Positions 11,350-46,409 of a DNA stretch of 64,000 nt are shown piece by piece. The stretch is taken from the NCBI GenBank assembly GCA_019828595.1, contig JAHQRK010000013.1, forward strand, positions 1,829,501-1,893,500, in the 5' to 3' direction. The DNA is from Aphanomyces cochlioides. Taxonomy: Eukaryota > Oomycota > Saprolegniomycetes > Saprolegniales > Verrucalvaceae. How positions within the stretch are numbered: the stretch's first letter is position 1; each line of letters opens with the position of its first letter. The position numbers and the translations under genes were made by a program. The notes beneath the pieces are model-generated. The model did not search any database and had not been told where the DNA came from. It saw only the letters and a list, made by a program, of their open reading frames with translations.

Positions 11350-12600
11350 ATGACCAAGGTGCAAGAGCTTCGGCTTCCGACGGCGTCTGCATCCTTTTCA
11401 CGCTGGTCTGTCGCGTACAATGTCATGTTTGTGCTCAACTTGGCATCCACGGTAAGTGCTATTGAGTCTTCTCTCGTTATGGATGTGTTTCTAGCCTTTC
11501 ATGGCTTATCTGACAGAGCCCCATCCAGGCCTCGTCATTCCTATTCCTCACGCCGCGACATTTGATGACTACGTGAATGTGACGGCAGCACATTTCAGAC
11601 AACTCTTCAACAATCAAACCGTTCACGGCTACAGTCGACGAGAAATTGCAACCAATTCGTTTGGATGACGTCGAGAGATGACTATACCTTGTCAAGTTGC
11701 CCACGTCGACGCGTTTGACTACATACTTGCCATGCCAGGTAACGCATCAGCGCATCTTTTGCCTTTGGTGAATCCTCCTCTCAGCGTCAAATTACTTTGG
11801 AGATGGCTTACGGGCTTATCTTGTTGAATTTCTCACGTCAAACGCTACTGTTCGCAAGCAAATGCAACCATGGCAACGATGCCAACATGGATATGTATTC
11901 ACGATTGAGCAGAGCGAATTGTGTGTCTGGTTGGAGGAAGTGGCTATGGATCGATACATTGTCTGGACAGCCACTGCCGTGCGTGAAACATCCCAGACCC
12001 TTTTGGCCAAGTGTATCTTTCGCATCTTGCTCACTTGCTACGTTTTGTACGCGCTTTGGTGTCGATATTACAGGCATTACAAGATCCTTGTTTCCAATTT
12101 ACGACACGTTGGCGTGTCTGCAAAGTACACACGATACGAAATTGTCGTGGGAGATCCTGCGTATGCAATTTTGAGACGATCCAGTCGTGTCGCTGGCCAT
12201 GGTGATTGACATGTTGTGGGGCGTGCCATACTATGCCATCTCTCTAATATACCTCACGCAATCCCAAGACCTATGGCTATATTGCAATGGGTGCATCTAT
12301 CTCGCCCGGAGTGTAAGTCCAACTCGTGGTTGCCTCTTTGAATTTTGTCATGAAGGTATGGTATGCTTACTTTTGGATGCGAATTTTCTCTTTTATCATC
12401 AAGTGGCGTCAATGGGAAGCATCCTTTGCCCCTGCTGGCAGCACCTGTATGGCTTGCCTACTTTTTTCATGCGAATGTTTTCCTTTAGGATCAAGTGGCG
12501 TCAATGGGAGGCATCGTTAGCCCCAGTGGATCCTGAACTTTTGGCGTTGAGAACTTTTATCAACAGTAGGTCAGTTATGCTCTTCTCACTTCGGTATATT
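11350..12600 (+). pseudogene. Multi-pass membrane family, copy 1 (broken)
   Basis: Exon 1 (11350-11451) is intact and encodes the N-terminal anchor; exon 2 starts at 11495. Three lesions are visible. An in-frame TGA at 11666-11668 replaces a residue in the conserved FG-I-RRE stretch. One base is inserted near 12175 in the conserved ILSDP segment. About 92 bp of exon 4 is tandemly duplicated (12357 and 12448 onward), so the RI-F-S-F-I-IKWRQWEASFAP block appears twice. After about 12600 the homology fades, and the C-terminal exon 6 is missing. Exon 3 up to the insertion is well preserved, which suggests recent inactivation. Confidence 0.8.
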
Positions 12601-13000
12601 GTGGTATTGGTGGTAATATCATTCGCCACTCTCAAACATCAAAGACAATGGTGGCAGCACCACCCAACTAGCTCGATACATTGTCATGTTAACTCACGGC
12701 ATACATGTGTCGATTGGTCACTTTGAAATTGCACTTGTATTGATTGCCACGACGTCCCCCCAGAGAGTGAAACTTGCTGGGAAATTACATTTGTTGCCAT
12801 TTCATGCAATGCGACTCAAGAGTTAACAAGATGGATGTATTGCCCATGAACATACCGAGGAACATTTCAATGAAAAGCCAGCAGCTCATGGGACTCCAAT
12901 GAACATCAATTGCAGAACAGCACGTGATCACAGCAATGTCGTACAATCATAGCTAAAGAGCACACTCAAACCACTTGACGGGCTTGCGGCTCTTGCCAAA

Positions 13001-14614
13001 TCAGCCATCGCCATGACGGAACGGTAGGTCGAAGTGATTGAGGGCTACCTCGTAGTTGGAACTGGTGTAGGTTGTGCCAAAGTTGCTGGAGCCGTAGCCT
13101 GCCTGGCAGCTAGTGACATCGACGACTCCATCATTGGCAGAAGCGTGCTTTGACAACATAGCAACGACTTGCAGTCCAGAGTAGACACTAAGCAAACCAA
13201 TTGCACTTGTTCCACACGCAAGCTTGGACACGTGTTGAGCTCGCTTGGATTGAATTGCCTCCAAGTTGTGAACTCTGTTGGCATTGACTGTCGATTGATG
13301 CAGCAAGGACGAGTAACCAGCATTGACTGGGCATAATCCCGCCATCTTCAGCAACCCCTTGATGATCCAATCGCTCCAACTACCCGAGTTACATTTCTGG
13401 ACGAGATAGTTTGCGCTCTTACTGCCTTGTATCGGAGCAGCCAAGGAGACCCAAGTCACGCCACTCGAAAACTCGCAAAAGTTATTCACCAAAGCTGCCG
13501 ATGCAATCATGTTTCCCATCGAATGGGTCGTCAAGATGAGATCGCTGATTGTACTCCCATTGTTGCCAGATGCAACTTGCAAGGCCATGTCACAGAACTC
13601 TCGCTGAAGGCTCTCGTCGTCCCATCCACGGGTCACAGTGTCCATGTGTGCAAACTTGGTGGTGGTGCAGCAGGGAGCGTGGTCGTGGATTGCACCCCAA
13701 TAATCGGTGAAAGTGTCCGTCAATGACGCAGTAGCGTTGAGGCCAACGCCATGGATAAACAAGCATGGCTTCTGTGGTCCCTTGCATCCACAAGTTGCGG
13801 CATCGAGACTAGCTGAAACAGCAGTGCCCACAAGATTGTTGCTTTCAAGCAGTATTCTCGTTCCCAACGTTGGAGGAGCCGTACGGACCAGCGGACAGTC
13901 AAGATCAGGTGGGGCTACGATGTCTGGCACTTGATTTGGATCAGTCAAGTACTCGATCGAGATCTCGAGATCGCTTGACCGACCGAAACTCAAGTGGTTG
14001 GTGTTGGAGTTACAAAAGACGAACGTTTCGCCAGCAAAACTGAGCTTCAAAAGTTGACCAGAGCCGCATTCCATTGGCATGGATGAATCGTCAGTGACAA
14101 GGACATTTTTCACAGCCCTTGAGCTTTCCAAGCTTGCTTGCACCAGATTCACGGGGGGGGAACTTGGTGACTCGTCCAAGCATCCAGAGCGGAGGAGGGT
14201 TTCGCCAGACGAGATGGACCAGTAAGCACGATTGTCCAACAAGACGTACGTCTCCAGAACTTGGTCGTCTTGTTGAATCAATATCGCATCGAAGTCAAGA
14301 GTGGCCGAGGGACTTCCAGCAGGACGAGGGACGATGTACATGCTTACTTCGGACTTGCCTTTCCATTGCATGGACGAACGGAGAGCTTTGATGTTGACTT
14401 TAAGGCCAGGGGACTGTTGGATGTTGCTCATGATGTTCTTGACGTCAGGTTGTTTCCTCTTATTGAAGACAATGACACCGATGGCAAGACAGACAGCGCC
14501 ACAAAAGACTACAATTGCGATCATGACGCAGAAGCGAGGAAAGACGCGAGGCTTGGGTTGGTCATGACATGGAGACGGTGTAGCCGCAACAAAATCGACC
14601 GTGATATCGTTCAT
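13001..14614 (-). CDS. Membrane-anchored alpha/beta-hydrolase (lipase-like) protein
   Basis: From ATG 14614 the product is 537 residues. It has a proline-rich cytoplasmic N-terminus, one strong membrane segment (about residues 29-50), a basic stop KRKQ and a large extracytoplasmic region, so it is a type II membrane protein. The hydrolase part contains LFIHGVG (oxyanion-loop type motif) and THSMGN with the candidate nucleophile Ser near 365. Asp near 495 (NDGVV) and His near 527 (LNHFD) are plausible triad partners. Several cysteines (CGCKGPQKPC, CCTT) suggest disulphides. An in-frame ATG at 14698 exists, but a GTGAGTATAC donor and CTGCAG acceptor between it and 14614 look like a 5' UTR intron. 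The gene lies inside the membrane-protein array on the opposite strand. Substrate unknown. Confidence 0.8.
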   Translation of the reverse strand: MNDITVDFVAATPSPCHDQPKPRVFPRFCVMIAIVVFCGAVCLAIGVIVFNKRKQPDVKNIMSNIQQSPGLKVNIKALRSSMQWKGKSEVSMYIVPRPAGSPSATLDFDAILIQQDDQVLETYVLLDNRAYWSISSGETLLRSGCLDESPSSPPVNLVQASLESSRAVKNVLVTDDSSMPMECGSGQLLKLSFAGETFVFCNSNTNHLSFGRSSDLEISIEYLTDPNQVPDIVAPPDLDCPLVRTAPPTLGTRILLESNNLVGTAVSASLDAATCGCKGPQKPCLFIHGVGLNATASLTDTFTDYWGAIHDHAPCCTTTKFAHMDTVTRGWDDESLQREFCDMALQVASGNNGSTISDLILTTHSMGNMIASAALVNNFCEFSSGVTWVSLAAPIQGSKSANYLVQKCNSGSWSDWIIKGLLKMAGLCPVNAGYSSLLHQSTVNANRVHNLEAIQSKRAQHVSKLACGTSAIGLLSVYSGLQVVAMLSKHASANDGVVDVTSCQAGYGSSNFGTTYTSSNYEVALNHFDLPFRHGDG

Positions 14615-18686: not shown

Positions 18687-20492
18687 ATGACCAAAGTCCA
18701 AGAGCTCCGGCCGCCCACGGTCTCTGCATCTTGTACGCGCTGGTCTCTCTTGTACAACGTTCTCTTTGTCCTGAACTTGGTGTCTTCAGTACGTATGCTG
18801 ATGCATTATAATTTAGTCTCATTCAACTTATAGCCCTTTACCGGCGAACCATATCCAGGTTCTCTTGGTTTCAGCCGTCTCCCTACCTGGAGAACATTTG
18901 ACGACTTTGTCAATGTTACTGCGACGTACTTCAAAGAATTATACAACAACCAGACGATGGAAGTCGATGAAACATGTCGACGGGAAGTTCAGGCAAACAG
19001 GTTTGTCTTACGACGTGAGATGACACTTCCATATGAAATACCCCGAGACCATGCTATTGACAACATGGTTCGCATGCCAGGTCTTCTACAATTACATTCC
19101 TGCATATATGTGCTAACTTCGTTGAAGCGTCGCTCTTCTTTTCGTATGGACAGCGCGCATATATAGCCGACTTCCTTTCGTCCAATGCAACATCCAGAAA
19201 TCAAATGCGATCATGGCAAATGTGCCAGCACAATTTAGTATTGTCCTTGTCAATTTGTGAATCCTGCATCTGGCTAGAAGTGATGGGATCAAATCGCTAC
19301 GTATTTTGGGTCGCTGTAGCGCTTATTGCATATCCCGCGACACGGTGGATCAAGGTTGTCTTTCGGTGTTTGCTCACTGTATATGTTATTTATGTTCTCT
19401 GGACGTCACTACGTTGTCCTCTTATGGAATCTTCGCCAATTTGGTCTTTCTCAAAAGTATGTTCGATACCGAGTTGTGGTTGGCGACCCTGCGTATGCAG
19501 TTTTGAGTGGTTCGATCGTTTCTTTGGCATTCATTATCGATTTGGGATCAACTTTGTCATATTTTGCCCTCGCTCATTTGCAAGTAACCCAATATCACGA
19601 CTTTTGGGTTTATGCAAGCGGGTGTGTGTACATGTCTCGAACTGTATGAAATTGCTGTAAATTCTATCTAGGTTTGGTATGCCTTCCTGGTTATGTGGCA
19701 TCCATCGTAGTGAAGAAATTTCAATGGGAGAGCAATTTTGGTCCCGTCGATCCTGGTTTATTAGCTGTCTGTGCCATGCTATACTCGGGACCGATCGTGA
19801 GCCTTGTTGGTAGCACACATTTGGAAATCTTCATCCATGAAATGTTGTCTCTCCCTCTGTCTTACGAACTTCGTGACCAGGCCATTGAGTGCTTTCCTGG
19901 TGAGATATCTTTCACGCGATATCTCATTATGTATTTTCATAGCTGCTTCGATGTTTATATTCGCAATGGCATTTCTTCCCTTGATTTTCTCTCGATTTTC
20001 TCGTTCTTGTCGCAAGTGCAGTAGGTCAAACACAACTGGCTAAGCAAACTAAAGCCTCTAGACCGAGTGTATCCCGCGAAATTATCGAAATTATACGTCA
20101 GCGACTACAAGTACAACGATCTCAAAGCTTATATACTCATCGCACTCACGATGGAAAAACATGCCAAGTATGAAACGGGTGGCTCACTACATGAACTTTT
20201 TCGCAAAAACCCTCAGTACAGAAAAATACCGCTCTTTAGCAGTCTTGCTGCAGATTGCTTTGTCTTGTGTTACACTGTCGATGGAGAACTAGACCAACGG
20301 ATGCGACTGTCTTTGTTCTCTTGCTCTGACCCTCGAGATCGTGACCCTCGTCAAAAAGTTTCAAAATGCACGTCTGAGCATATGATGGCAATTTCAGTAA
20401 TGAACTGCGACAGTTGCAGGACATTTACGCCATCTTCCAACGATACCAAATGCATTCATCGGAGCAGCTCAAACTGTCAATGGATTATGTGA
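18687..20492 (+). pseudogene. Multi-pass membrane family, copy 4 (two frame-breaking deletions)
   Basis: Exon 1 (18687-18788) and exon 2 (18834-19080) are intact. Exon 3 begins at 19128. Near 19403 about 11 bp is missing from the conserved W-x-R-Y-Y-R-H-Y stretch, shifting the frame. Near 19697 about 4 bp is missing in exon 4 after the L-V-M residues. The frames resume correctly after each lesion, and exon 6 is complete, ending QWIM at 20492. The sequence between lesions is well conserved, so the copy was lost recently. Confidence 0.8.
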
Positions 20493-21087: not shown

Positions 21088-22937
21088 ATGAACAAAGTCG
21101 AAGCGCTTCGACAGCCCAATCCATTTGCATCTTTTACACGCTTGTCAATCTTGTACAATGTAGTGTTTGTCCTGAATTTGGTGACAACGGTACACTCAGT
21201 CGTTGCGTGGTTTGAGTCTCACGTTTCTATTAGCCGTTCACAGCCTATCTCGGAGAGCCTTTTCCAAACTCCTTTGGTTCCAAGCGCCTTCCAACATGGA
21301 CTTCCTTCGACGAATTCGTCAATGAGACAACAACATACTTCAAACAATTCTACAACAATCAAACCATGCTGTATGAGACCAGTCAACGGGACGTTCAAAA
21401 CAATACATTTGTCTTACGCCGCGATATGACGCTTCCGTATGATATTCCACTGTCCGATACTACCGACTACATGATTCGCATGCCAGGTTTCAACAATGTC
21501 CCCAACTTTGTTTGCTTAAGCTTGTCCTAGCATCGCTCTTCTTTTCTTATGGCACAAGAGCCTATATCACCAATTTCCTCACGTCGAATTCAACGAAGAG
21601 AAATGAAATGAAACCTTGGCAGATGTGTCAACACAATCGATTGTTGACGTTGACATTAAGCACATCATGCGTGTGGTTAGAAGAGATCGATGAAAATCGC
21701 TATACGTTCTGGGTGACCTTTGCACTCTCAGCATTTCCCACGATCCGTTGGGTCAAGCTGATAGTCCGAGGTCTGCTTACCATTTATATATCCTATATTC
21801 TGTGGATTCGCTATTACCGCCACTACAGTGTCCTCTTGTCAAATTTACGGCAACTTGGTATGGCTCAAGTCTTCACCAGATACAAAGTTGTCATTGGTGA
21901 CCCTGCCTATACGGTATTGAGCGATACAGTGGTTTCTGTAGCCATGGTTGGAGACATATTCACGAGTCTACCATACGTTGGCCTCGCACATTTACAAGTA
22001 ACGCAGTTTGAAGATGCTTGGCTCTATATCAGTGGCTGCATGTATTTATCTCGCGGTGTACGAAAAACTCTTGTCGTCTTGGATCTCTTATGCTGAAATC
22101 GATTTTGTAGGTGTGGTATGCCCTCCTCTTTATGCGAATTATCTCGATCTTGGTCAAGAAGTGCCGATGGGAAGCCTCTTTTGCTCCCGTGGATCCTGGC
22201 CTTTTAGCTATATGTGCAACATTGTACGCTGGGCCACTGATCAGCTTAGTGGGGGGAACACATTTGGTGTGGATTTTCTATGGCTTGTGGTCTCTCTTTC
22301 TCCCGCGCGATCTCGGCGATCAAGCTATTGAAAGCGTGTCAGGTATTCAGAATTTTGTGTGAAGCACTAAAATGAACTCGTATAGCTACGACAGTTATTG
22401 TTCTGACGTTGTCGAGTCTGCCATTGATCTTTTCTCGCCTCTCACCCACAAGGCTTACGTGTGGTATGGGCTGCATGTGTTATAGTGTCATTGAATTTTT
22501 GTTTAGGTCGAGTGCATCCAATTATGTCATCGATACGAAGCGTCAGCGACTACAAATATAATGATCTCAAAGCAATGCTCTTACTTGGACTCGCTCTTCA
22601 CGAGAAACCAAAACACTCTACTGGTGGCTCATTTCATGCACTATACAAAAAGAACCCTCACTATCAGAAAATTCCTCTGTTTAGCCATCGTGCTGCAGAT
22701 TGTTTTGTCTTGTGCTACATAAATGATGGAACTCTCGATCAAATGGTGCGGCTATCTCTCCTGTCCTGCTTGGATCGTATATCACAAGATCCGAAGCATG
22801 CTATTTCAAGATGTACGTCGGTTCATTCCACACCTGTCTGCGTGCTCAGCAATGAACCTTGTGCCTCATTTATTCCAACCTCCAGTGATGCCATATGTAT
22901 TCACATGGGCAGCCTAGATTGTCAATGGATCATGTGA
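21088..22937 (+). CDS. Multi-pass membrane family, copy 5 (intact, 539 aa)
   Basis: Six exons splice cleanly: 21088-21189, 21234-21486, 21531-22057, 22111-22342, 22386-22460 and 22507-22937. They total 1620 nt. Introns are 41-53 nt with GT-AG ends and fixed phases (0, 1, 0, 1, 1). The protein has an anchor (about residues 19-42), then an ectodomain with NET and NNQT sequons and a C-x-C-x pair (QMCQH, CVWLEE). Six to eight membrane segments follow between about 175 and 390, with RYYRHY and VIGDPAYTVLSD in between. The last 143 residues form a conserved C-terminal domain (DYKYNDLKA, IPLFSHRAADCFVLCY) ending CQWIM. I do not recognise the family. Topology suggests a surface protein with an inward or lumenal C-terminal domain. 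Confidence 0.85.
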
Positions 22938-23381: not shown

Positions 23382-25142
23382 ATGACGAAAGTCCAAGACA
23401 GCGGGAGCACATAGCCTCTGCATCTTGCACTCGTTGGTCAATCTTTTTCAACGTCGTGTTTGTCCTAAACTTACTATCAACGGTACGTTGGATAGCTTTT
23501 TGAGCAGGCTGACTGTCTTCAGCCTTTTTTAGCTTATCTAGGAGAGCCTTTCCCAGACTCTTTTGGTTCCAGACATCTTCCTGACTGGATAACCTTTGAC
23601 GAATTTGTAAATGTGACTACCTCCTACTTCAAACAATTATACAACAATCAAACAATGCGGCCTGACGAAGCTAGTCGACGCGACATTGAGAATAATATGT
23701 TTGTCTTACGTCATGATATGAAATTCCACAAACCGAAATTATAGACTACTTGATCAGCTTTCCAGGTATTGACTATGTCTGTGCAAAACGTTTTCTGAAT
23801 TTAATTGTAGCATCATTCTTCTTCTTGTACGGCACTCCAAATCTCGTGATTAATTATTTCATGTCGAACGCTCCATTCCGTCAAAATATGCAGCCTTGGC
23901 AAATGTGCCAGCACAATCGTTTGTTGGGCTTGACATTGAGCAGATCTTGCATCTGGATGGAAGAAATCAGCTCCAACTGCTACACAGTTTGGGTCACCGT
24001 TGCGTTCTCGGCATTTCCCGAGGCACGTTGGGCAAAGATCATCGGTCGAATTCTTCTCACCATATATATTCTTATGTGCTTTGGACTCGATATTACCGTC
24101 ACTATTTCGTCCTCTTATCCGATTTACGACAATTGGGCTTGAGCCAAAAGTATAATCGATACCATGTTGTGGTTGGCGACCCTGCATATGCAATATTGAG
24201 TGATTTGATTGTTTGTGTTGCCATAGTTGGAGATATGTTTTCGAGTTTATCATATATTTCACTGGCACATTTACAGGTGACACAGTTCCATGACACTTGG
24301 CTTTACATCAGTGGCTGCCTGTGTTTGTCTCGTGGTGTAAGTGTATTTATCACCAAATGTTGTGACCAAAACTTTGGCTTGTTGGTCTGGTATGCATTTT
24401 TGTTTATGCGAATCCTTTCGATTTTGGCTAAGAAGTATCGATGGGAAGCATCGTTTGCTTCTGTCGTTCCCAGTTTACTAGCAATCTCTGCATTCCGTAC
24501 TCGTACTCGGGGCCAGTTGTGAGTCTGATGGGTGGAACGCGAATGATTTGGATATTTTACGGCATGTGGTCAGTCTTTCCACCGTATGAACTTCGGGATC
24601 AAGCTATTGAATGTGTATCAGGTATTGAATTTTCGTACTTCACCTACGTGAGTGCTGAATTTAGCTGCTACTACAATATGATAATTCTGACGCTGGCTGG
24701 CCTACCTTTGCTGTTCTCACGACTTGCTCTATCTTGGAACAAACACCGTAAATCTCGTACTCCAATAAAATTATTAACTTCCATGTGTTCTAGACCGCTA
24801 TTGCTTATAAAGTCAGCGAATCGAATCGCCAGCGACTACAAGTTCAACGATCTGAAGGCTTATTTTCTCCTCACTCTTACCATGCAAAAAGATGTCAAAC
24901 AATCGACTGGAGGCTCACTTCATGAACTTTGCTGCCAAATGCCTCAGTACAGAAAAATTCCACACGTTTATCATTGCTCTCATGCTTGGATCTGCATTTG
25001 GACGATCGCAAACAATTAATTTTAAAATGCACGACGTCGCAGTCGTCGCCAGTGTGCACCTTTGGCAGTGGATCATTTATTCCAATTTCCAACGAAACTA
25101 AATGCATTCACCTCGGCAGCTGAATTTGCTAATGGATTATGT
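23382..25142 (+). pseudogene. Multi-pass membrane family, copy 6 (many lesions)
   Basis: The ATG is at 23382, but one base is missing near 23394 in exon 1. Exon 2 lost 13 bp between two TAT repeats near 23718. Exon 3 lost one base near 24073, just before the conserved W-T-R-Y-Y-R-H-Y. Exon 6 is internally deleted after K-I-P near 24960, and the family stop is recognisable at 25142. Each segment is still clearly homologous to the intact copies. It is certainly non-functional. Confidence 0.85.
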
Positions 25143-25997: not shown

Positions 25998-27927
25998 ATG
26001 ACTAAAGGCCACGAGGTACGACGCACCGTGGCCACTGTTTCGTACACACGTTGGTCAATTGTGTACAATGTGATTTTTGTGCTGAGCTTGGTGTCTACGG
26101 TAAATACCTCCTGCAACTTCGAGGGTCTCACTGTTGATCTAGCCTTTCATGGCTTATCTAGGAGAGCCTTACCCAGGCCCTGTAGGCCCCAGACATCTTC
26201 CTGAATGGAACACTTTTGAGGAATTCGTCAACGTCACAGCGTCGTACTTTAAACAACTATACAATAACCAAACTATGGAAGAGGATGAAATGAGTCGACG
26301 GGAAGTACAGATGAACATGTTTGCCCTACGCCGTGATTTGACGCTGCCGTATGAAATACCAAAAGATCACACTGTCGACTACATGATTCGCATGCCAGGT
26401 TTGAATATGAATTTTAATTGTATATGCTGAAGCTAGGTGTAGCCGCTCTCTTCTTTTCGTATGGCCAACGCCACTTTGTCTCAAATTTCCTCATGTCCAA
26501 CGTAACAAGTCGCAATCAAATGCAGCCTTGGCAGATCTGTCAACACAATCGGCTCTTAACCTTGACTATGAGCGAATTTTGCATCTGGCTGGAAGAAGTT
26601 GGAGCAACCCGATACATCTTTTGGGTTGTAATTGCGTTGTCGGTCTATCCTGAAGTCCGATGGTTCAAGCTGTTTACTCTCGGGTTATGTCATCTATGTG
26701 CTCTGGGCACGTTATTACTGTCATTATATTGTCCTCAAATCCAACCTTCGTCAGTTTGGTTTATCGCCAAAATATACGAGTATGAAGTTGTCGTTGGTGT
26801 TCCAGCGTATGCAGTATTGAGCGATCCAGTTGTTTCAGTCGCCATGGTCCTTGATATGCTATCAAGTTTGTCATATTTTGCCCTGGCGCTTTTACAAGTT
26901 ACACAATTTCAAGAGGCTTGGCTGTATATTTTTGGCTGCGTGTATTTATCCCGTGGGGTACGGCGAGTCTACCCAAACAGTGATGATCAATTTGAAATGC
27001 AGGTGTGGTGCGCTTTCCTATTCATGCGCATTTTTTCAATTTTCGTCAAGAAGCGACGTTGGGAAGCTTCTTTTGGGCCAGTTGATCCCGGATTATTGGC
27101 CATTAGTGCATTTGTCTACACGGGACCTCTTGTCAGTCTTTTGGGGGCCACTCGCATGGTGGGGCTCTTTTATGTTCTATGGTCTATCTTTCTCCCGGAC
27201 GAGCTCCATGACCAAGCTATCGAATGTTTTTCAGGTTTGATACATTATGATGGTACCTCGAATGATACGCGTTTCAGCTAGCACCATGATTGTCTTCACA
27301 TTGCAACATTACCCGTGGCCTTTTCTCGGCTTTCGTTATCATGGATCAAATGGAGTATGAGGCAAATAATTGAATCATGATTGAATTATTTCCTGTCTAG
27401 ATAGCAGACGTCCAGCAATGGCGGCCAAAAAACATTTCAGCGATTACAAGTACAATGATCTGAAATCTTATATCCTTCTCGCACTGACTATGCAAAAACA
27501 CGAGAAACATGCCACTGGTGGCTCAGTTCACGAGCTTTACGAAGAGAGTCATCATTATAGAAATATCACGCTCTTTAGTCATCGAGCTGCGGATTGTTAT
27601 GTCTTATGCTACACAAGTGATGGAAGCCTCGATCTACGTGTTCGTCTGTCATTGCTGGCTTGTTTAGATACAAATGACTACGACCCCAAGAACGTGGTTG
27701 TACTGTGCACTTCAACACATTCCACGGCTTTAGGGGTTATCAACCATGAAGGCTGTGCAACATTTTCACCAAGGTCCGGAAATGTCAAGTATATTCATCT
27801 AGGCAGTTCAAATTGCCCCAGACCCCGCCGTCGCAACAACCGAAAGAATTCGCTCCACCTGCACGACGAACCACAGTCGCTAAAGCCAACGAGCATTTAC
27901 TTCTCCTACTGTCCATGGATAATGTAA
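25998..27927 (+). pseudogene. Multi-pass membrane family, copy 7 (compensated indels, C-terminal insertion)
   Basis: Exons: 25998-26099, 26143-26398, 26443-26957, 27003-27234, 27278-27354, 27401-27927. Exon 3 is 12 nt shorter than normal. An 11-nt loss near 26690 and a 1-nt loss near 26785 cancel out, so the frame stays open but about 33 residues, including the RYYRHY motif, are read out of frame. Exon 5 is one base short, which breaks the frame before the C-terminal exon. Exon 6 carries a 96-nt in-frame insertion (27817-27912) between the conserved SNC and PWIM. I call it a pseudogene because of exon 5, although long stretches remain open. Confidence 0.75.
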
Positions 27928-27949: not shown

Positions 27950-28599
27950 CTCTTTTCCTGCTTTATGCAGTTTTGTTGGCCTCGCGGCGTCCTCTTGCCA
28001 GTGGTGGACCAATATTGAGCTTGAATTTCCTTGAAAGAACCGGCGCACATGATGAATTACATGAGTGCGGCCAATCTAAAAAGGCAAATGTCTTAATTGT
28101 TGTTGTGATAGTTTGAGAGCTTCCTATGCTTTCTTTTTTGTCCAGATTTCTCAACCTGCAACCTAGACAGAATACGCCAACTAAATTCGCAAATCTTTCA
28201 ACGGAGTGTGACTGATTTCATGTACAACGACATGACTATTCTTTTGCTTGCACTGACTTTACGAAAGCAAGCTAAGCGATTGACTGGTGGCTCTCTTCAT
28301 AAGTTGTATCAAGAGAGCGCACGGTACAGAAAATTCCACTCTTTAGTCACCGTGCTGCCGACGGTAATGTTTTGTGCTACACGGGCGATGGCGTTCTCGA
28401 CCAAAGGGTTCGACTTTCTCTACTCTCTTGGCTTGATACTCAAGACCATGATTCCAACATTGCAATTATAAAGTACTTTTCGATGCATTCGACTTCTGTG
28501 TGCACCATGCACAAAACGAGTTGCGATAAATTACCACTAGTGACCAACGATACCACAATTATAAGTGTTGGCATTTTCAATTGCATATGGATAATTTGA
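27950..28599 (+). pseudogene. Membrane family relic (mainly exon 6)
   Basis: From about 28208 the C-terminal domain is recognisable (F-x-YNDM, RLTGGSLHKLYQE), with a frameshift near 28340. A second frame continues from 28372 (CYTGDGVLDQRVRLSLLSWL) to a stop at 28599. The 250 bp before it show only faint exon 4-like similarity. There is no exon 1, so this is a fragment left by deletion or unequal exchange. Confidence 0.65.
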
Positions 28600-29042: not shown

Positions 29043-30861
29043 ATGACGAGGGTGTATGACAGCAGACCTTCCATGGTGTCTGCATCTTGCACGCGCTGAT
29101 CCATGGTGTATACTGTCATCTTTGTCCTGAACTTGGCGTCCACGGTACGGATCTTCACTACGGTGCTGCAATTTGATGGGTTCATCTAGCCTTACATTGC
29201 ATATTTTACGGAGCCTCGTCCTTGGTCAAGTTCCCTCAATCGAACTTCCTCCGTGGACTTCCTTCCAAGACTACATAAATGTGACGACTGCATTTTTTCA
29301 AGAAATCTACAACAATGACAGTATGAATCTTCATCATTCTCTAATTCGGCAAGATATCATGACCAACACATTTGGATTTCGATACGAATTGAATTTGCCG
29401 TATGAGGTCTCGGACGCAACGACTCTAGACTACATCATTACAATGCCAGGTACTTCCTCCTACTCATTACATTTCGCTGAATCCAAATCAGCGTCAATCT
29501 TTTATGGACCGGGTATCAATTATTTCATGACAGACTTCTTGACAGCAAAGGCAAATGTGTCAGCACGATCGCTTTGTGGGCCTGACCCTCAGTGAATTTT
29601 GCGTGTGGTTAGAAGAGACAGAATCAAATCACTACATTATGTGGGCTGCGGTTGCTCTGGTGGACTCCCCGACATCATCGTGGGCAAAGCTTGTCTTCCG
29701 AAGTGTCCTGACGAGCTACATATTGTACGTACTCTGGGCTCGCTATTACTATCATTACTTTGTTCTCTTGTCCAATTTACGGCACATTGGACTACCTCCC
29801 CATCAACACGCTCGATACAGAGTTGTGGTTGGCGATCCTGCGTACACCATATTGAGTGACCCAGTTGTCTCGCTTGCTATGGTTGTGGACATGTTATGGG
29901 GCATGTCATACGTTGCTTTAGCTCTGCTACACGACGCAGTTTCATAACGTTTGGCTCTATGCGATCGGTTGCATATATTTGTCGCGATGTGTACGACGAT
30001 CAGCTCAAATTGGACTCTCATTTTGGTATAATAGGTGTGGTGTGCTTACCTTTCAATGCAAATTTTCTCGGTGGTCCTGAAGTGGCGTCGCTGGGAAGCA
30101 GCATTTGCTCCAGTTGATCCTGGTCTTTTGGCGATTTGCGCCTACATCTATTGTGGGCCTGTCGTGAGTATCATGGGATCGACTCGTGCGGTGTGGATCT
30201 TTTATGCCTTGTCATCACTTTTTGAGCAGCAACATCGTGAAGCTGTTGAAGCTATTGCATGTAAGTATGATGTCGTCGATTGACTCACAATTGCATTGAT
30301 GTAGCTGTAATTGCATTCATATTGATCATGTCAAGCCTCCCTTTGGTATACTCGCAAATGTGGGCCAAGTGCCACAGATACAGTACGTTTAATGTTTTCG
30401 CTTATGGTCATTGCTGTTGTCTCTAGATCGAATTCGTCCAAGAAGACGCCATTCTCGAAGAAGTTCATTGAGCAAAAACTCTCAAGGACGGTTTAGTGAC
30501 TGCAAGTACAACGGCGTGAAGGCGAATGTCCTCCTTGCATTCACCTTACAAAAAGCTGCCAGAAGATCGACTGGGGGTCTCTATACAAGTTATACCAGAT
30601 TTATCCTCATTACAGAAAAATGCCACTCTTCAGCCATCGCGCAGCTGATTGCTTTGTCCTGTGCTACACAAGTGATGGAACTCTCGATCAACGCGTGCGA
30701 CTATCGTTGAACTTTTGGTTAGACCAACGACTCCACGGGCCGAGGTATGGCATTGTACGATGCAAAACGCTGCACACGACATCTACGTGTGTTATCCACA
30801 ATAGGGCAACAACGACAAGTGTATTCATATAGGTAACTCAAAGTGCCAATGGCTAATGTAA
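29043..30861 (+). pseudogene. Multi-pass membrane family, copy 8 (nonsense and frameshifts)
   Basis: Exon 1 begins at 29043 but has TGA at 29097-29099 where all other copies have the TGG of the R-W-S motif. Exon 2 has a one-base shift near 29180-29230. In exon 3 about 39 bp around the usual N-A-T...MQPWQ region is missing, and a 2-bp loss occurs near 29932. Exons 4 to 6 are recognisable (IFSVVLKWRRWEAAFAP; MPLFSHRAADCFVLCYTSDG) with more shifts, and the copy ends QWLM at 30861. CAAAAATAG at 29005-29013 is its promoter-like element. Confidence 0.8.
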
Positions 30862-31514: not shown

Positions 31515-31705
31515 ATGACCAAAAATCGAGTGTCTGTAGCTCATGGCTTCAGCATCGTTAACCCACTTGTCGATGTTGTACAATGTCATCTTCGTGCTGA
31601 ATTTAGCGTCAACAATAAATTCCTATTGTGATGTCACTATGTCTTACAAACTTGCTTAGCCTTTCATGGCCTATTTGACCGATCCACTCCCAGGCCATTT
31701 GAATC
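31515..31705 (+). pseudogene. Membrane family relic (exon 1 and start of exon 2)
   Basis: ATGACCAAAAATCGAGTG and the following L-Y-N-V-I-F-V-L-N-L-A-S-T segment are exon 1 with a small frame change. The normal splice donor GT is replaced by AT after the last codon. The start of exon 2 (AFMAYLTDPLPG) follows at about 31664 and then breaks off into unrelated sequence up to 32094. Confidence 0.7.
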
Positions 31706-32094: not shown

Positions 32095-33383
32095 ATGAAC
32101 AAGGTGCAACAAATTCGCCTGCCCACAGCAGCAGCTTCATGCTCTCGCTGGTCACTTGCATATAATGCCCTGTTTGTGATGAGCTTGGCATCGACAGTAC
32201 CACCTCGTTAGATAAGTAGCTTATCTTTCGTTGTTTGTTGACTATTTACGTGTTATTCGTACTCTGGAATCGATACTACCGACATTTTATCACCTTACTG
32301 AACAATCTACGACAGATTGGCCTGTCACAACAGTACGGTCGGTATAAAATTGTAGTTGGGGACCCGGCGTATGCGATTTTGAGTGACCCAGTAGTCTTTC
32401 TGGCTATGGTGATTGACAGTTTATGGAGTTTGTCGTATATTGCTGTGGCTCTCATTCAGGTAACTCAGCTCCAAGATATATGGCTATACATCAGTGGCTG
32501 CACGTTGTGTATGTGCTACGACTTTTTCTGCTTCTCACATTTTAATATAGGTGTGGTATGGTTACTTGTTTATGCGAATTCTTTCTGCCATCGCCAAGAA
32601 ATATCAGTGGGAGGCGTCCTTTTCTCCGGTCGATCCAGGTTTCTTGTCCATTTGTGCCTACATTTACGCTGGGTCAATCGTGAGTATCATGGGAACAACG
32701 CAATTGGTACAGATATTTCATGTTCTGTGGTCTTTGTTTCTCCCCGAGGAGATGAAACACCAAGCAATTGAAGGAATCACTGGTAATTCATCTTGCCTTG
32801 TCTGAGATCTCATCTATTCTTTTTTAGCTACAGTTTTCGTGTTTTTCATCCAGGCATGTATTCCCTTGATATTCTCTGGACTATTTAAGTGGCCAAAATG
32901 CAGTATGTATAACTCTCGCTGTTTTCCATAACATCATGCCACCTAGTACGAGTACGAGTTTACCCAGTTCATACCATTCGGCGTCGCGCCAGCGACTACA
33001 ACTTCAATGATCTAAAAGCTCGTATCCTGTTAGCAATCACGCTTGAGAAATCAAGCAAGCATTCAAGTGGAGGTTCGCTGCACAATCTATATCGGGAGAA
33101 TCGGAAGTACCGAAAACTGCCGCTTTTTAGTCATCGTGCGGTTGATTGCTGTGTATTGTGCTACATAAGCGATGGCACACTTGACCGACGAGTGCGACTG
33201 TCATTGCTCTCTTTTTTGGATACACAAGAACGGAGCCCCAAACACGTCATAACAAAGTGTAGCTCAATGCACTTGACAGCTGTCGGTGTTATTAATCACG
33301 AAGCCTGCGCCATTTTTGGCTCACGATCGAAGGATTCTAAGTACATCCATCAAGGTAACTGCAATTGTCAATTGCTCATGTAG
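32095..33383 (+). pseudogene. Multi-pass membrane family, copy 9 (ectodomain deleted)
   Basis: Exon 1 (32095-32196) is perfect. About 25 bp later the sequence resumes in the middle of exon 3 at L-L-T-I-Y-V-L-F-V-L-W, so exon 2 and the first half of exon 3, the whole extracytoplasmic part, are gone. The remaining exon 3, exon 4 (from 32551), exon 5 and exon 6 are well kept, and the end reads NCQLLM with a stop at 33383. The leftover intron 1 is too short to splice (about 23 nt), so a fused product is unlikely. AAAAATAG is at 32042-32049. Confidence 0.8.
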
Positions 33384-34668: not shown

Positions 34669-36515
34669 ATGACCAAGGTCCATGACTTTCGACATCAAAG
34701 AGCGTCTGCAAGTTTTACCCGCTGGTCGGTCGCATACAACACTCTCTTTGTACTCAATTTCGTATCATCGGTAAGTCGTTATCAAGATAGGCTTTCGTCG
34801 ACAGGCTATACTAGCCGTTTTTGGGCTACCTAACAGAATCCCCGCCTTGGCTTGTTGCGTCAAGTGGATTGCATGAATCGAGATCATTTGATGCCTTTCA
34901 GAACGAAACTGCTGCATACTTTCAACTCCTCTACAACAACGACACGATGCAAGCTTTCATCCAGCGAGACAATATTGCCAACACATTAGGAATACGGCAA
35001 GAATTGACTTTGCCGAATGAAACACCTCGTGCTGATACCGATGACTACTTGATACGAATGCCATGTAATTCCGATGACCTATAATTTAGCTCTTTACACC
35101 GTGTGTATAGCTTCAGCCTTCTACTCGTCTGGCACTAGAACTTTTTTTATTGATTTTCTGACGTCCAATGCAACCCAACGCAATCGGATGCAGCCATGGC
35201 AACGGTGTCAACACACTTAAATATGCGGGGTGAAGTTAACCGAGTCATGTATCTGGTTGACCAGGACTGAAGAGGACCAATATATACTTTGGGTTGGTCT
35301 GGCACAGCTGGACTTTCCAATATTTTGTTGGCTCAAATTTATCTTCCGATGTTGCCTGACAAGTTATGTCATCTCTGTGCTCTGGACCCGCTACTACTGC
35401 CACTACGTTATCCTCCTGTCCAATTTACGGCACATCGGGCTCTCTCCAACATATGCTCGATACCAAGTTGTGGTTGGCGATCCTGGATATTCAATATTGA
35501 GCGATTCAGTCATATCTGTTGCCATGGTTGTAGATATTTTGGTTAGTGTTGGGTACGTTGGCATCGCTCATCTCAAAGTGACACAATTCCGTGATGCGTG
35601 GTTGTACATTACTGGTTGCTTGTACTTATCTCGAAGTGTATAAAGTCTGAGATAGATATTCTTCGAATTATACTCCCATTGTAGGTTTGGTTTGCTTACT
35701 TGTTTATGCGAATACTTTCGATAATTGTGAAGAAGTATCAATGGGAAGCATCGTTTCCCCCATTTGATCCTGGATTATTGGCCATTACAGCTAAAATTTA
35801 CTGTGGACCTGTCCTAACTATCATGGGAACAACACGCTTAGTACAGCTCTTGCGTCTTATGTGGTCTCTTTTCCTACCAGAGCATTTCCAAACTCAAGCC
35901 ATTGACGGTGGCCCAGGTGTGATTTCTCTGCGACTATTGGATTTTATTTTCATGATATCGTAGTTATGGCTATGGTTATAATGCTGTTTGCAAGCCTACC
36001 TTTGGCTTTCTCCCGACTGAAATGCAAGTGGCCTACAATTAGTGCGTACACAAATATATCAACAATCTATATGTTTTCTTCTAGGTCGAGTGCATCCTTC
36101 AAATCGACTGCAATGTGCTGTGAGCGAACACAAATTTAATGATCTCAAGGCATATGTATTCTTGGCACTCACTATGCAGAAGCAAGCTAAACATTCAACG
36201 GGAGGCTCTCTCTACACTTTATATCAGGAAAACCATCGGTACAGAAAAATCCCTCTCTTCAGCCATCGTGGAGCGGATTGCTTTGTCTTGTGCTACACAA
36301 GTGATGGCTTGCTGGATCAAAGTGCTCGACTCTCATTGATTACTTTCTTGGATACACAAGATCAGGACGCCGAGCTAGCAATTCCAATATGCAAGTCAAA
36401 CCATTCGATGGCAGTGAGCATAATCAACAAACAAGGCTGCGAATCGTGCACATCACTGTCCAAAAACACCAAGTGCATTCATACTGGCAGCTCGAATTGT
36501 CATTGGGTCATGTAA
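34669..36515 (+). pseudogene. Multi-pass membrane family, copy 10 (single nonsense codon)
   Basis: All six exons have the standard boundaries: 34669-34770, 34815-35064, 35111-35637, 35685-35916, 35964-36041, 36085-36515, total 1620 nt as in the intact copies. The only lesion I see is TAA at 35218-35220 in exon 3, just after the QRCQH motif. Everything downstream is in frame, including NATQR, RYYCHY, VVGDPGYSILSD and the C-terminal domain ending CHWVM. Either this is a very young pseudogene, the base is wrong, or the codon is read through. ATAAATAG at 34621-34628 is the promoter-like element. Confidence 0.8.
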
Positions 36516-37102: not shown

Positions 37103-38160
37103 ATGGCAAACGTGCATGAAGTAAGACAGTCAGTGGTGTCAGCGAGATGCACTTTCTGCTCAATCACTTCCAATATCATTTTTACGCTCAATCTGGTGTC
37201 AACAGTACCAAGTGGAAATACTCTTAATCTTTTCACTGGGTCAATCTAGCCTTTCTCTGCGTATCTGACAGAACCACTGCCTTGGTATGTTGGTCCAAGT
37301 CAATCGCCACAATCGGCAACTTTTGAGATCTATGTGAATGCGACGACTACATATTTCCAACAATTCTACAACGATGAGACTATGACAGGCTAGAATCGGT
37401 GAGATCCCTCCACCAACACGTTTCGCACAAGGCAAAAAATGTTCTTGCTTTTTGAAGCATGCTCAGCTATCGACTACTAGTACATGATTCGTATGCCAGT
37501 TAGTGCTACACTTCATTTTCTCAAGAAGTCTACAGCACCACACTCGAGGTGATCATGTATTTGAAGTTGAACTGGGACCTCATGAGCCAAGGGAACATCT
37601 CACAAGCCATCAAGTTGTCCAAGGCTACCGAAAAGGATCTTAGACGTCGCAAAGCTCTCTCACGATAACATTATATTGAATATTGACAATGATTGATTGT
37701 CTTGTGTGCATTATGACCAAATCAGACGAGGAAAACTACACTGTGTGGGTTGCTATTGGTCTCCTCGACTCACCTGCGTCTTGTTGGATAAAATTTGTTT
37801 ACCGTTGTTTGCTGACAAGTTACTTGGTACGTATGCTCTGGACTCACTGCTACCGCCATTTTGCAACTCCATGTCGAATTTACATCAAGTTGGTATGTTA
37901 CCAAAGTTTGTGAAGTATAGAATTGTGGTTGGTGACCCCGGGTGGGCGATTCTCAGAGCCCCATCGTCTCAGTTGCCATGGTTATCGACTTATTGGACTG
38001 CCTTGGATATTTCGGCGTGGCACTGATTAAAGTCATGCTATTCCATGATATTTGGTTCAGCATCACCGGTTGCAACTACTTGTCCCGCGCGGTAGTTTGT
38101 TCAAGATGTATCGTCCTTGACTGAGCCTTTGATACTTGGTATGGTATGCTTACTTGGCCG
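37103..38160 (+). pseudogene. Multi-pass membrane family, copy 11 (heavily decayed)
   Basis: Exon 1 (37103-37204) is open but diverged (two cysteines near the anchor). Exon 2 starts at 37251 (PFSAYLTEPLPWYVG) and hits TAG near 37391, then decays. The region 37510-37690 is not homologous to the family and looks inserted. From 37725 exon 3 resumes (EENYTVWVAIGLLDSPASCWIKF), with frameshifts around 37890 and 37960. Traces of exon 4 occur near 38140, and exons 5 and 6 are absent. Confidence 0.75.
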
Positions 38161-38525: not shown

Positions 38526-38573
38526 TCCTTGGGATATCATAATAAATAACGCTGTCGCCAGATCTCTTTGCAG

Positions 38574-38930: not shown

Positions 38931-38976
38931 AGCTTGGAAGTTGTTCAACGCCACTGACTCCCTGCTCACTCATAGC

Positions 38977-40827
38977 ATGACCAATGTTCAAGAAATGAGG
39001 CTGCCGACGGCATCCGCATCGTGTACAACATGGTCGATCATTTATAATATCGTTTTTGTGTTTAACCTAGTGGCGACGGTAAGCAAATCTTAATGTACTC
39101 TCGATAATCCTACCTGTCAATCTAGCCCTTATTTGCTTACCTGACAGAGCCCGAACCTTGGCATGTTGGTCCAAGTCAATTACCAAGAACAACAACTTTT
39201 CAAGAGTTTGTGAATGCGACCACTGCTTATGTTCAAAGGCTATACAATAACGAAGCCATGCAAGGCTCCTGCCGACGAGATATCGCTGCTATTACGTTTG
39301 GCATACGACGAGAAATGGCCCTGCCATTTGGATTATCTTAGGCGAAGCTATCGACTACATGATTCAAATGCCAGGTATGCTCATTGTCCTCAAAAACTCA
39401 CGCAATCCGAAGGGTCCTTCTTTTTTAGCAGTGGGTTGAGAGTATTCATGATGGACTTCCTTTCATCTAATGCAACCGTTCGTGATAAAATGCAGCCGTG
39501 GCAGCAATGTCAACGAAGCATTTTATTAGGCATGGACGTGTGTGAATTGTGCACCTGGCTAACGAAAACAAAAGAAGATCACTACACAGTGTGGACCGTT
39601 GGTGTTATTATCGACTCCACATCGTATTGCTGGATAAAATTCGTTTTTCGATGTTTGCTGACAAGTTATATATTCCATGTGCTATGGACTCGCTACTATT
39701 GCCACTACATTATCCTTTTATCCAACTTACGCCAAATCGGTCTGTCCCCAGAGTTTGTCAAGTATAAAATTGTTCTCGGTGACCCCGCTTATGCCATTCT
39801 AAGTGACCCCATCGTATCAGTTGCCATGGTTGTTGATATACTAGGCACACCTGGGTACTTTGGTCTGGCTCTGTTTAAAGTGATGCAATTTCAAGACGTG
39901 TGGGTCTACGTCACTGGTTGCCTCTATTTATCACGAGGGGTAACCTCTACAAATTTTTGTATCGAGGCTAAATTTTCAGCTGTAGGTCTGGTACGCTTTC
40001 TTGGTCATGAGACTTCTTTCGTTTTTGATTAAAAAGTATCGGTGGGGGAGATCGTTTCCCCCCGTCGATCCAGGTTTTTTGTCAATGTGTGCGAAAATCT
40101 ACAGCGGACCAGTCATCAGTATCATGGGAACAACACGCTTGGTGTGGGTCTTTTATGTTATGTGGTCGTTATTCCTTCCAGAAAATCTCCAAGGTGAAGC
40201 AATAGAATGCGCCTCAGGTACACAAAATGTTTGCGTCGATATCAGACTATCTCTTGGTCATAACAGGCGTGGTTGTGATCATCTTGGTCATGTCGAGCCT
40301 TCCAATACTTTTCTCTCGACTTACATGCAAATGGCCTCAATGCAGTATGCACTCCGATTTCGCCATTTTGCTAAATCTATCTTCTAGGTCGAGTACACTC
40401 AATAAACATTATTCAAAGAGCTGTGAGCGACTACAAATTCAATGATCTCAAGGCATATATCCTTCTTTCATGTACAAAGAAAACACGTGCCAAGCATTCG
40501 ACTGGGGGAACCTTCCACTCACTGTACCAAGAAAACCCGCGGTACAGAAAAATTCCGCTGTTTAGTCATCGTGCAGCCGACTGTTTTGTCTTAAGCTATA
40601 CCAGCGATGGCTCTCTTGAACAAAGCGTTCGCCTGTCGTTATTCTCTTGCTTAGATACACAGGACCAAAACCCCAAACTTGCGATTTCCACATGCAAATC
40701 AGCTCGTACGACTGCGGTGGGAAGGATCAATAATAAAATTTGCAAAGCCTGTCAAAACATCGCACCTCAACGCACGAACTCCAAATGCATCCATCTTGGT
40801 CATTCTAATTGTCAATGGGTCATGTGA
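38977..40827 (+). pseudogene. Multi-pass membrane family, copy 12 (one frameshift in exon 2)
   Basis: Exon 1 (38977-39078) is intact and exon 2 starts at 39126. One base is missing near 39331-39341 (P-F-G-L-S then TAG, instead of P-F-x-x-P-x-G-E-A). Exon 3 uses an AAG acceptor and is open through VLGDPAYAILSDP to YLSRG. Exons 4, 5 and 6 are intact, and the C-terminus ends CQWVM at 40827. Only this single lesion separates it from a complete gene. TTAAAATAGG near 38917 is its promoter-like element. Confidence 0.8.
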
Positions 40828-40879
40828 CAAAACTTCAGTCAAATGTTTATACGTCCACACGCAAATCGTTGACTAGTTT

Positions 40880-42140: not shown

Positions 42141-42151
42141 TATAAAAATAG
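42141..42151 (+). promoter_or_regulatory. TATA-like element of copy 13
   Basis: TATAAAAATAG, 46 bp before the ATG of an intact family member. This is the best match to a canonical TATA box in the array. Confidence 0.6.
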
Positions 42152-42197
42152 GAACCTGTTCAGCGGGGAGACTTCAGAGTGCGGCCACTCACATAGT

Positions 42198-44050: not shown

Positions 44051-44542
44051 CCTGGCAAATTTCACAAGGAATTTGGTTGACTTTCCACGGACTAGGACTG
44101 GTAACATTTGCAGCAACACATTTGGCTTCTGTTTTGCCCTTGTGCAAGTTTCGTTCTCCTGTCGGGAAGCTCTGTTACAAGGTTTTCATTTGCCTCAACT
44201 CCTGTCGCAAAACTAAGTTCTAAGTGAATACCAACTACATATCACCGGGAGTAAATTTCGGGACCCAACGAAGCCATCTTGCCATTGACGTCACACTAAA
44301 GCTCCAGGGGTATCCTGCCTTCAAAACTGCGTACCTTCGGTGGGACAGTTTGAAACCAGGACTGCTCTTGTAGCCCCGTTACTGCAGAGCAACTCCCACT
44401 TTGTTTACGTCGACTTCGAAAGATCGAAGATCGAGGACAAGACTGAAATAGGACAAGTGAGCAATGAATCCAGCGAATCGCATGTGTAAAAATAGATTCT
44501 GCAAGCACTGGACAGTCGTAACGCTGGTAGACTTGTCATCAC
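44051..44542. other. Spacer with promoter-like element
   Basis: No gene is recognised. TAAAAATAG is at 44487-44495, 48 bp before the next ATG. Confidence 0.4.
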
Positions 44543-46409
44543 ATGACCAAGGTCCAGGAAATTCGACGACCCATGTCTCCAACGGCAACCTTTACTCGCT
44601 GGTCGCTCGCTTATAATGTCATCTTCGCCCTGAACTTAGCGTCTACAGTACGTTGTTCCCTCTTTTCCTCGAATGGACTCACATGTGATCTCGTCCTAGC
44701 CATACATGGCTTACCTTGCTGAGCCACATCCTGGTCTTACTGGATCGAGTCAACCCCCTCCATTTACTTCTTTCAAAGACTTTGTCCACGTGACATCCAA
44801 TTACTTTAAACCTCTCTACAACGACTCGATGCCTCTACGTAGAGTCAGTCGACGAGATTTTACGAGTAATACGTTTGGAATCCGTCGCGACATGACACTG
44901 CAGTATGAAATACCTGATGGCGACATGATTGACTACATTATTCGCATGCCAGGTAGTACAACACAAGTCACTGCTGCTGGTTTACATAACCAACGTATGT
45001 AGCATCGCTCTACTATGGACAAGGCTTGCGATCTTTTCTTGTTGATTTTCTTGCCTCCAATGCAACCACTCGCAATCAAACCCAACCATGGCAATTGTGT
45101 CAGCACGGTCAAATTGTTGCGATTGATTTGAGCGACTTGTGTGTTTGGGTCCAAGCAACCGCCCAAGAAAGCAGCTACACCGTGTGGGCAGTGACAGCAG
45201 TCTTAGAAACTCCCGAGTCGTGCTGGGCAAAGTTTGTCTTTCGAACGTTGCTCACTATCTACGTCTTGTATGTTCTCTGGGCTCGCTATTATCGCCACTA
45301 CGTCATCCTGTCGTCCAATTTACACCAAGTGGGCATTTCTCCCCAGTACAATCGATATAAAATCGTCGTGGGTGACCCTGCGTATGCAATTTTAAGTGAT
45401 CCAGTCGTGTCTGTTGTTATGGTCGTCGATACATTATGGGGCGTCTCGTATATTGCTGTTGCTCTGATCCAAGTGACGCAATTCCAAGATGTTTGGCTGT
45501 ACGTTAGTGGTTGTGTGTATTTATCTCGTGGGGTATGCACTGAATCATCTTTCAAATGTTCTCTTCTCTTCTCTAGGTCTGGTTTGCATACTTATTTATG
45601 CAAATCCTCTCGGCCATGGTCAAGAAATGGCGATGGTAAGCGTCGTTTCCTCCAGTTGATCCTGGTTTCTTGGCCATTACTGCCTACATCTATTGCGGTC
45701 CGGTCGTAAGCGTCATGGGGACAACGAGATTAGTGTGGCTCTTTTATGAATCATGGTCTCTTTTTCTTCCTGAACCCCTTCAAGGCCAAGCAATCGAAGG
45801 AATCACCGGTATGACATGATTTCAGCTAATTCTTGCTTAATCTCTTGTTGCTAGCGGTGACGGCAATGTATTTAATTCTATCAAGCCTGCCTTTAATCTT
45901 CTCACGACTAACCATGCAGTGGCAAAAACTTCGAACGTGCATTTGCCTCTATCCACCCTCATCAAATTCTAGTTCAAGCTCGTTCGACGAAAATTCGACC
46001 TGGTGTGAGTGATTATTCGTTTAATGACATGAAAGCCCACGTTCTTCTCGCAATGACGATGGAAAAGCACACCAAGCGCTCCATAGGCGGGTCTCTTCAC
46101 GAATTATATGTAGAAAGTCCCCACTACCGAAAGCTTCCGCTCTTTAGTCATCGGGCTGCTGACTGTTTTGTCGTGTGCTACACTAGCGATGGAAGTCTCG
46201 ATCAACGTATTCGATTATCGTTGCTATCCTGGTTCGATCAACAAGTTGACGATCCCAAGTTTGCGATATCTAAATGCCCGTCGATGCATTCGTCTGCAGT
46301 TTGCTACATCAATCAAGAAGGTTGTCCTGTCATTGCCCCTAGTCTTCGACTCGTCAATTTATTCACTTGGGCAGTTCAGAGTGTCAATGGGTCATGTGAT
46401 CCCTTGTAA
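44543..46409 (+). pseudogene. Multi-pass membrane family, copy 14 (nonsense plus late shifts)
   Basis: Exon 1 (44543-44647, one codon longer), exon 2 (44700-44952) and exon 3 (45003-45532, one codon longer) are intact. Exon 4 begins at 45577 and has TAA at 45637-45639, where paralogues have GAA in R-W-E-A-S. The same change creates a GTAAGC donor-like sequence. The exon 5/6 junction is off by one base, and a one-base shift near the end of exon 6 replaces the last residues, so the frame closes at 46409 instead of the usual QWVM stop. It is a recent pseudogene at the right end of the array. Confidence 0.8.

Follow-up and report, generated by a model that had tools for sequence, protein, structure and literature searches.

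Aphanomyces cochlioides is an oomycete that is described as infecting sugar beet roots (PMC11653986). The stretch of its genome analysed here, 64,000 nucleotides of contig JAHQRK010000013.1 (assembly GCA_019828595.1, positions 1,829,501 to 1,893,500; hereafter the window), carries a tandem array of genes for a multi-pass membrane protein whose family is undescribed as far as we searched. By spliced protein-to-DNA alignment the array comprises 10 full-span copies, three truncated copies and three fragments, all on the plus strand between positions 11,350 and 46,409, with the first start codon at position 11350. No minus-strand match to the family was found in the window by tblastn (E up to 1e-3). 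In this census a family profile was aligned to the DNA by a script that allows introns, stops and frameshifts, and two additional bits scoring 60-61 were left out of the count. A preliminary description made from the sequence had placed a one-strand array at the same positions, as the alignment confirms, while its count of about 14 copies plus at least five fragments was slightly high. The best exon-level match in the genome besides the query itself has E = 7.2e-87, so the repetition is far beyond chance.

The array

The members, placed by profile alignment, are given below in order, together with one upstream element; exons are listed for the two lesion-free copies.

11350..12579, plus strand: truncated copy with exons 1-4, end lost, broken; orthologue A. 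euteiches P0021
15218..15752, plus strand: remnant with parts of exons 1-2 and exon 6; the first part best fits A. euteiches P0014
16440..18291, plus strand: full-span copy whose one disturbance lies at the exon-2/intron-2 junction; partly annotated as AC1031_004469
18687..20489, plus strand: full-span copy, broken by a stop and a frameshift
21088..22934, then stop, plus strand: full-length lesion-free copy; six exons, 21088-21189, 21234-21486, 21531-22057, 22111-22342, 22386-22463 and 22507-22934
23382..25141, plus strand: full-span copy, heavily broken
25998..27819, plus strand: full-span copy, broken by frameshifts
28157..28596, plus strand: fragment, an extra exon 6 (C-terminal domain)
29043..30858, plus strand: full-span copy, heavily broken
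31546..31701, plus strand: fragment, exon 1 and the start of exon 2
32095..33380, plus strand: copy that has lost a large internal part (exon 1 remains, then the sequence from mid-exon 3 on) and shows a small disturbance later
34669..36512, plus strand: full-span copy with a single in-frame stop, otherwise complete
37103..38152, plus strand: truncated copy with exons 1-3, broken
38977..40824, plus strand: full-span copy with a single frameshift
42143..42151, plus strand: TATA-like element upstream of the intact copy at 42198, with its core starting at -52 relative to the start codon
42198..44050 including the stop, plus strand: full-length lesion-free copy of 539 amino acids; exons 42198-42299, 42347-42596, 42640-43166, 43217-43448, 43495-43572 and 43620-44050
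44543..46409, plus strand: full-span copy broken by a stop and frameshifts; its annotation is AC1031_004472

Only two of the 10 full-span copies, at 21088-22934 and 42198-44050, show no lesion, the latter with GT-AG borders at all its introns; the other eight and all three truncated copies carry lesions. The copy at 16440-18291 is an arguable third intact member, and the public gene model AC1031_004469 reads straight across its disturbed junction. This model (P0029) maps to 16553-17416 with 100% identity over 288 of 383 residues, and AC1031_004472 (P0008) maps to 44543-46406 in four pieces, of which one is 95.6% and the others 100% identical. Apart from the two lesion-free copies and those at 16440-18291, 34669-36512 and 38977-40824, every full-span copy has multiple lesions. 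The earlier impression that only two or three members are intact and that many were lost while nearly complete thus holds for the array.

Distribution of the family and searches for relatives

Two family members used as queries against the genome had 123 and 115 exon-level matches, which group by position into roughly 80 loci (copies or remnants) on eight of the 94 contigs. This figure is rough: only the best candidates were scored, the grouping counts 11 loci in the window where the finer alignment gives 13 copies and three fragments, and some loci on contigs C53, C68 and C89 may be a single locus assembled repeatedly. C53 and C68 (L034 and L035; 78,617 and 42,915 bases) hold the same two diverged members in near-identical form, with equal-score matches on C89, and are perhaps haplotypes or assembly duplicates. 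From 20 other stretches of the genome we obtained 27 full-span models, of which 19 carry lesions and eight are lesion-free (seven distinct, two being identical); one of the lesion-free models, L037:2828-4699, is without a clear start codon. Lesion-free copies occur on C5, C14 and C34. A recent inverted duplication with intact members was also observed on C14, where L021:1341-3198 and L022:491-2348, and likewise L020:8308-10000 and L022:3509-5381, are identical or nearly so.

Protein database searches (giving 51, 55 and 3 matches) returned 60 different relatives, and all of them belong to Aphanomyces: A. euteiches, A. cochlioides, A. stellatus (two) and A. astaci (one). Because scoring in each search was limited to the 7999-8000 candidates with the most shared words, the limit to the genus is provisional; the family appears restricted to Aphanomyces as found so far and may have relatives in other Saprolegniales.

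The 539-residue protein has no match in Pfam. When more members were scanned (14, 25 and, out of the 60 database relatives, 58; best E 0.028, 0.11 and 0.009, respectively), scattered matches to unrelated families appeared in one or two members each, which we judge to be chance. A single NCBIfam match among five proteins (E = 0.24) is not credible, PDB sequences gave no match at E up to 10 with single sequences or alignments over the whole length or parts, and Rfam gave none across the window at gathering scores. The family was likewise absent from the literature searched, including the parts covered of PMC7399828, PMC8780586, PMC5907361, PMC11653986, PMC8308905 and PMC3681718, with supplements outside the search. 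The array and the family are real, and the initial failure to recognise the family is borne out: the searches made, including the Pfam search that had been proposed, found neither an annotated family nor a transposon-encoded protein, either of which would have removed its novelty. Work on the A. euteiches secretome is described as having excluded proteins with a predicted transmembrane domain (PMC8780586), and a family of this size could therefore stay unnoticed.

Many copies, a large part of them dead, are also what a transposon protein would leave behind. However, the family genes have conserved introns and are confined to eight of 94 contigs, copies share little DNA outside the genes in self-comparison, no flanking inverted repeats of at least 20 bases were found (shorter ones were not looked for), and Pfam revealed no transposase-like domain. 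We rejected this origin, which is extremely improbable, on the grounds of the clustering, the little DNA shared in the flanks and the lack of such repeats.

Gene structure and predicted protein architecture

A family gene consists of six exons, and its five introns lie at residues 34, 118, 293, 371 and 397 in phases 0, 1, 0, 1 and 1. Among the full-span copies of the window, introns 1-5 occupy their fixed position and phase in 10, 10, 8, 9 and 7 of 10, respectively, and six of the 10 have all five in place; the corresponding numbers outside the window are 26, 25, 23, 21 and 10 of 27, with all five in 6/27. The introns at these sites are short (32-69 bases, median 45; n = 203). Six exons with short introns in fixed phases, as first described, therefore apply to the window copies, while the fifth intron, present in 10 of the 27 models elsewhere, is not fixed outside it.

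Protein averages were taken over those copies with 450 codons or more, leaving out near-duplicates (38 of 53). Averaged hydropathy gives six hydrophobic segments, at about residues 21-39, 191-209, 251-269, 282-300, 323-341 and 368-386, which is the lower end of the six to eight proposed earlier; part of the region separating segments 5 and 6 is hydrophobic as well and may form an additional segment or a re-entrant loop. Lysine and arginine number 3.8 in 20, 4.2 in 41, 3.7 in 22 and 20.2 in 153 residues of the loops assigned to the inside, against 10.2 in 151, 0.8 in 12 and 1.6 in 26 residues of those outside. Since this alternation follows the positive-inside rule, both ends are predicted to be inside, with an ectodomain between segments 1 and 2.

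The outer domain (residues 40-190) has C150 and C164 in every copy with a letter there, and positions 46-190 contain 2.47 sequons per copy (range 0-5), about twice the 1.16 (sd 0.15) of shuffled sequences. The ectodomain with sequons and cysteines noted at the outset is in this respect well founded, and we predict from the residue pattern that it is glycosylated and disulphide-bonded. The conserved C-terminal domain of about 140 residues is equally clear: in this inner domain (397-539) C466, C499, H503, C515, H529, C535 and W537 are each retained in 94-97% of copies, and metal binding by its Cys and His residues is a guess. Per-site entropy is highest in the outer domain (1.93 bits), against 1.67 for the inner domain and 1.57 for the membrane block.

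The predicted topology is reminiscent of PKD2 and TRPML channels, which have cytosolic ends, six membrane segments and, separating segments 1 and 2, a large outer domain. A highly diverged polycystin- or TRPML-type cation channel would explain this shared plan, and the hydrophobic stretch at about 343-358 between segments 5 and 6 could then be a pore loop. However, the array family has no sequence or profile match to these channels. PKD_channel (PF08016) and Ion_trans (PF00520) are in no Pfam match of family members, and although the profiles find 15 and 152 places in the genome, respectively, none of those listed (for Ion_trans a part of the 152) falls at a family locus. Profile-profile comparison with four PKD_channel pieces from the same genome gave a probability of 0.2%, a weak test as the alignment is small. 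Copy number differs as well, since most surveyed oomycete genomes are described as encoding two PKDRR members (PMC7399828), compared with roughly 80 loci here. We regard such a channel as highly unlikely.

Several polar motifs at the membrane block are near-invariant, namely GDP at 240-242, D259, DP at 321-322 and GP at 334-335 (95-100% of copies), and these could be catalytic or transport-related. The family might accordingly represent a novel type of transporter or a membrane-bound enzyme of lipid or cell-wall metabolism; its expansion would then reflect dosage or specialisation on different substrates. The moderate purifying selection over the whole length reported below would also suit this explanation, but no credible match to such families exists in Pfam or PDB sequences, and we consider it possible though doubtful.

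Age of the array

Several window copies have orthologues in A. euteiches. In a tree of 73 rows (48 of the 53 copies with more than 250 codons, five near-identical ones being dropped, and 25 of the 60 database proteins), the copies at 11350, 16440 and 32095-33380 (labelled 32220) pair with P0021, P0005 and P0013, respectively, each with support of 100/100. Identities are 90.5% over 338 aligned positions for P0021 and copy 11350-12579, 86.6% for P0005 (AeRB84_014556) and copy 16440-18291, and 86.0% over 258 positions for P0013 (AeRB84_014560) and copy 32095-33380. Copy 42198 belongs to a 100/100 group with P0001, P0007, P0002 and P0003; its identity to the A. euteiches relative P0001 (AeRB84_014562) is 82.6%. 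Because it is closer to P0002 and P0003 within this group, A. euteiches may have two genes of this type. The remnant at 15218 is too short for the tree, and P0014 (AeRB84_014554) fits it best (76% over 75 positions).

AeRB84_014554, 014556, 014560 and 014562 are all listed with a contig of 72,110 bases, and their tag order is the order of 15218, 16440, 32220 and 42198 in the window. The A. euteiches order was taken from the tag numbers, not from contig DNA, and it rests on three genes and less surely on the fourth, AeRB84_014554, which is matched through a short remnant only. Because the two species share this order, the array most likely predates their split. P0013 retains the segment deleted in copy 32095-33380, which places that loss on the A. 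cochlioides side. Copies 18687, 21088, 23382 and 25998 have best A. euteiches matches of only 51-58% among the returned proteins, and their counterparts may be lost or merely unannotated there. The birth-and-death pattern proposed in the preliminary description is hence partly upheld: the copies are tandem and losses are many, but the duplications are old, orthologues are conserved at 83-91%, and the recent change of the array would thus be mostly loss.

Selection and upstream conservation

Window copies are saturated at silent sites (dS 1.35 for the closest pair) and for this reason cannot be tested for dN/dS. Pairs outside the window at dS 0.27-0.53 have dN/dS of 0.30-0.43, and median values over 19-27 pairs are 0.28 for the N-terminus, 0.375 for the outer domain, 0.31 for the membrane block and 0.28 for the inner domain. 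A subclade of six copies on C14 shows 0.36 overall, with overlapping intervals for the outer domain (0.37; 0.28-0.48) and the membrane block (0.35; 0.25-0.47) and 0.32 for the inner domain; its maximum over 30-codon windows is 0.66, at residues 391-420 and outside the ectodomain. Purifying selection dominates in these related copies, as measured by whole-sequence and window averages on the pairs and the single C14 subclade, and selection seems to have kept related copies working elsewhere in the genome. In four C14 copies (L026, L027, L028 and L029) dS is 0.45-0.70 over residues 1-180 against 0.12-0.40 from 181 onwards, except for 0.57 at 391-420, and the drop suggests gene conversion over much of the 3' part.

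Tandem copies with pseudogenes would also fit a family of surface antigens or decoys evolving under diversifying selection; the preliminary description had named such selection on a surface family as one of two suggestions. The outer domain has the highest per-site diversity and a slightly higher median dN/dS than the other parts. However, exposed domains of surface antigens are expected to exceed a dN/dS of 1, and in the six C14 copies no window does so; the comparison of ectodomain and membrane block that had been called for shows no difference. Every window has a dN/dS well under 1 and the domain intervals overlap (averages, with no site-by-site test), and orthologues of this beet pathogen and the legume pathogen A. 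euteiches are 83-91% identical. Diversifying selection finds no support, and an antigen or decoy family is unlikely.

Eight of 13 window copies carry AAATAG, the core of the TATA-like element, at -35 to -66 from the start codon, and six of the 13 upstreams have it as AAAAATAG. Chance would give 0.885 (shuffling, in 36) or 0.71 (random window pieces), and the core is missing from six other window genes checked. In a fairer control, 100 shuffles of the 13 upstreams, the commonest six-base word reached a maximum of 6. Retention of the core despite saturated silent sites between these copies points to constraint in the window subfamily. A canonical oomycete initiator element was also considered and dropped, having a weak match in only one of the 13 upstreams.

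The lesions in eight of 10 full-span and three truncated window copies and in 19 of 27 models elsewhere raise the question whether the family is a relic with little function left, in which the intact copies are chance survivors. Yet lesion-free copies persist on C5, C14 and C34, dN/dS is well below 1 at dS 0.27-0.53, and a promoter-like core is kept in eight of 13 window copies despite the saturation of silent sites. On this evidence we consider a relic quite unlikely.

A possible role

We tentatively propose, at a probability of about 40%, that the array encodes a cell-surface sensor or channel-like protein of an old family so far found only in Aphanomyces. The basis is the architecture and the copy-number pattern only, from which we infer that the protein sits at the cell surface and that it acts in sensing or as a channel. 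The protein would have six membrane segments and both ends in the cytosol. On the outside, the roughly 150 residues that link segments 1 and 2 would form a glycosylated domain with a disulphide bond and meet environmental or host molecules. The conserved inner domain of about 140 residues, rich in Cys and His, could pass the signal on or gate a pore. Tandem duplication would have built the array before A. euteiches and A. cochlioides diverged; the copies would since have decayed one by one, with a minority staying intact.

A number of observations weigh against this proposal. The hydrophobic segments are not strong (mean Kyte-Doolittle 0.94-1.84), so their true number may differ from six by one or two. 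An internal membrane location would give the same predicted glycosylation, and the ectodomain has no sign of the fast evolution expected for an arms-race recogniser. The closest young pair (dS 0.126) has a dN/dS of 0.58, and relaxed selection on the youngest copies is for that reason possible. Three of the six copies of the C14 selection test carry lesions, and one is truncated. The AAATAG core occurs in only two of 23 copies outside the window, and it was chosen from the same 13 upstreams in which it was counted.

The family has parallels of a general kind. Insect and nematode chemoreceptors are multi-pass proteins encoded in tandem arrays that undergo birth and death and include many pseudogenes, and the array family shares the tandem arrangement, the membrane passes and the pseudogenes. 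It differs from them in having a large outer domain, which these receptors are not known to have, and in its old duplications shared between species; the sequences were compared via Pfam only. Theileria Tpr is described as a large parasite multigene family of unassigned function with a conserved membrane-associated C-terminal part and some interspecies orthologues (PMC10730637). The likeness in size, conserved C-terminal part and orthologues between species is by description only, and Theileria belongs to another phylum. Closer in taxonomy, the AeSSP proteins are described as partly clustered, specific to A. euteiches, without a functional domain, secreted and shorter than 300 residues (PMC5907361). 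They resemble the array family in partial clustering and in the lack of a functional domain, whereas the array protein is a multi-pass membrane protein of 539 residues.

Aphanomyces zoospores are described as swimming chemotactically towards roots (PMC11653986). If the sensor reading is true, the family would provide a first handle on how zoospores find roots. A more far-reaching version, which we think improbable, is that these proteins are genus-specific surface sensors or ligand-gated channels with which zoospores or hyphae read root-derived signals, and that a repertoire of intact and dead copies differing between the beet and the legume pathogen helps to set host preference. Whatever the role, a large nameless membrane family without a known domain is common to two root-rot pathogens, and losses that differ between the species make natural tests possible.

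Neighbouring genes

Six ankyrin-repeat genes flank the array on both sides, at 3634-4734 (minus strand), 6406-7647 (plus), 9216-10283 (plus), 46936-48003 (minus), 49474-50481 (minus) and 56692-58044 (plus). They form a second clustered family, the closest pairs of which are 78-79% alike in DNA. Inside the array an open reading frame of 565 residues at 13001-14698 (minus strand) has an N-terminal membrane segment and a putative lipase-like serine motif, with no Pfam match. A transposase-like open reading frame with a DDE_3 domain lies at 61775-62965 on the minus strand.

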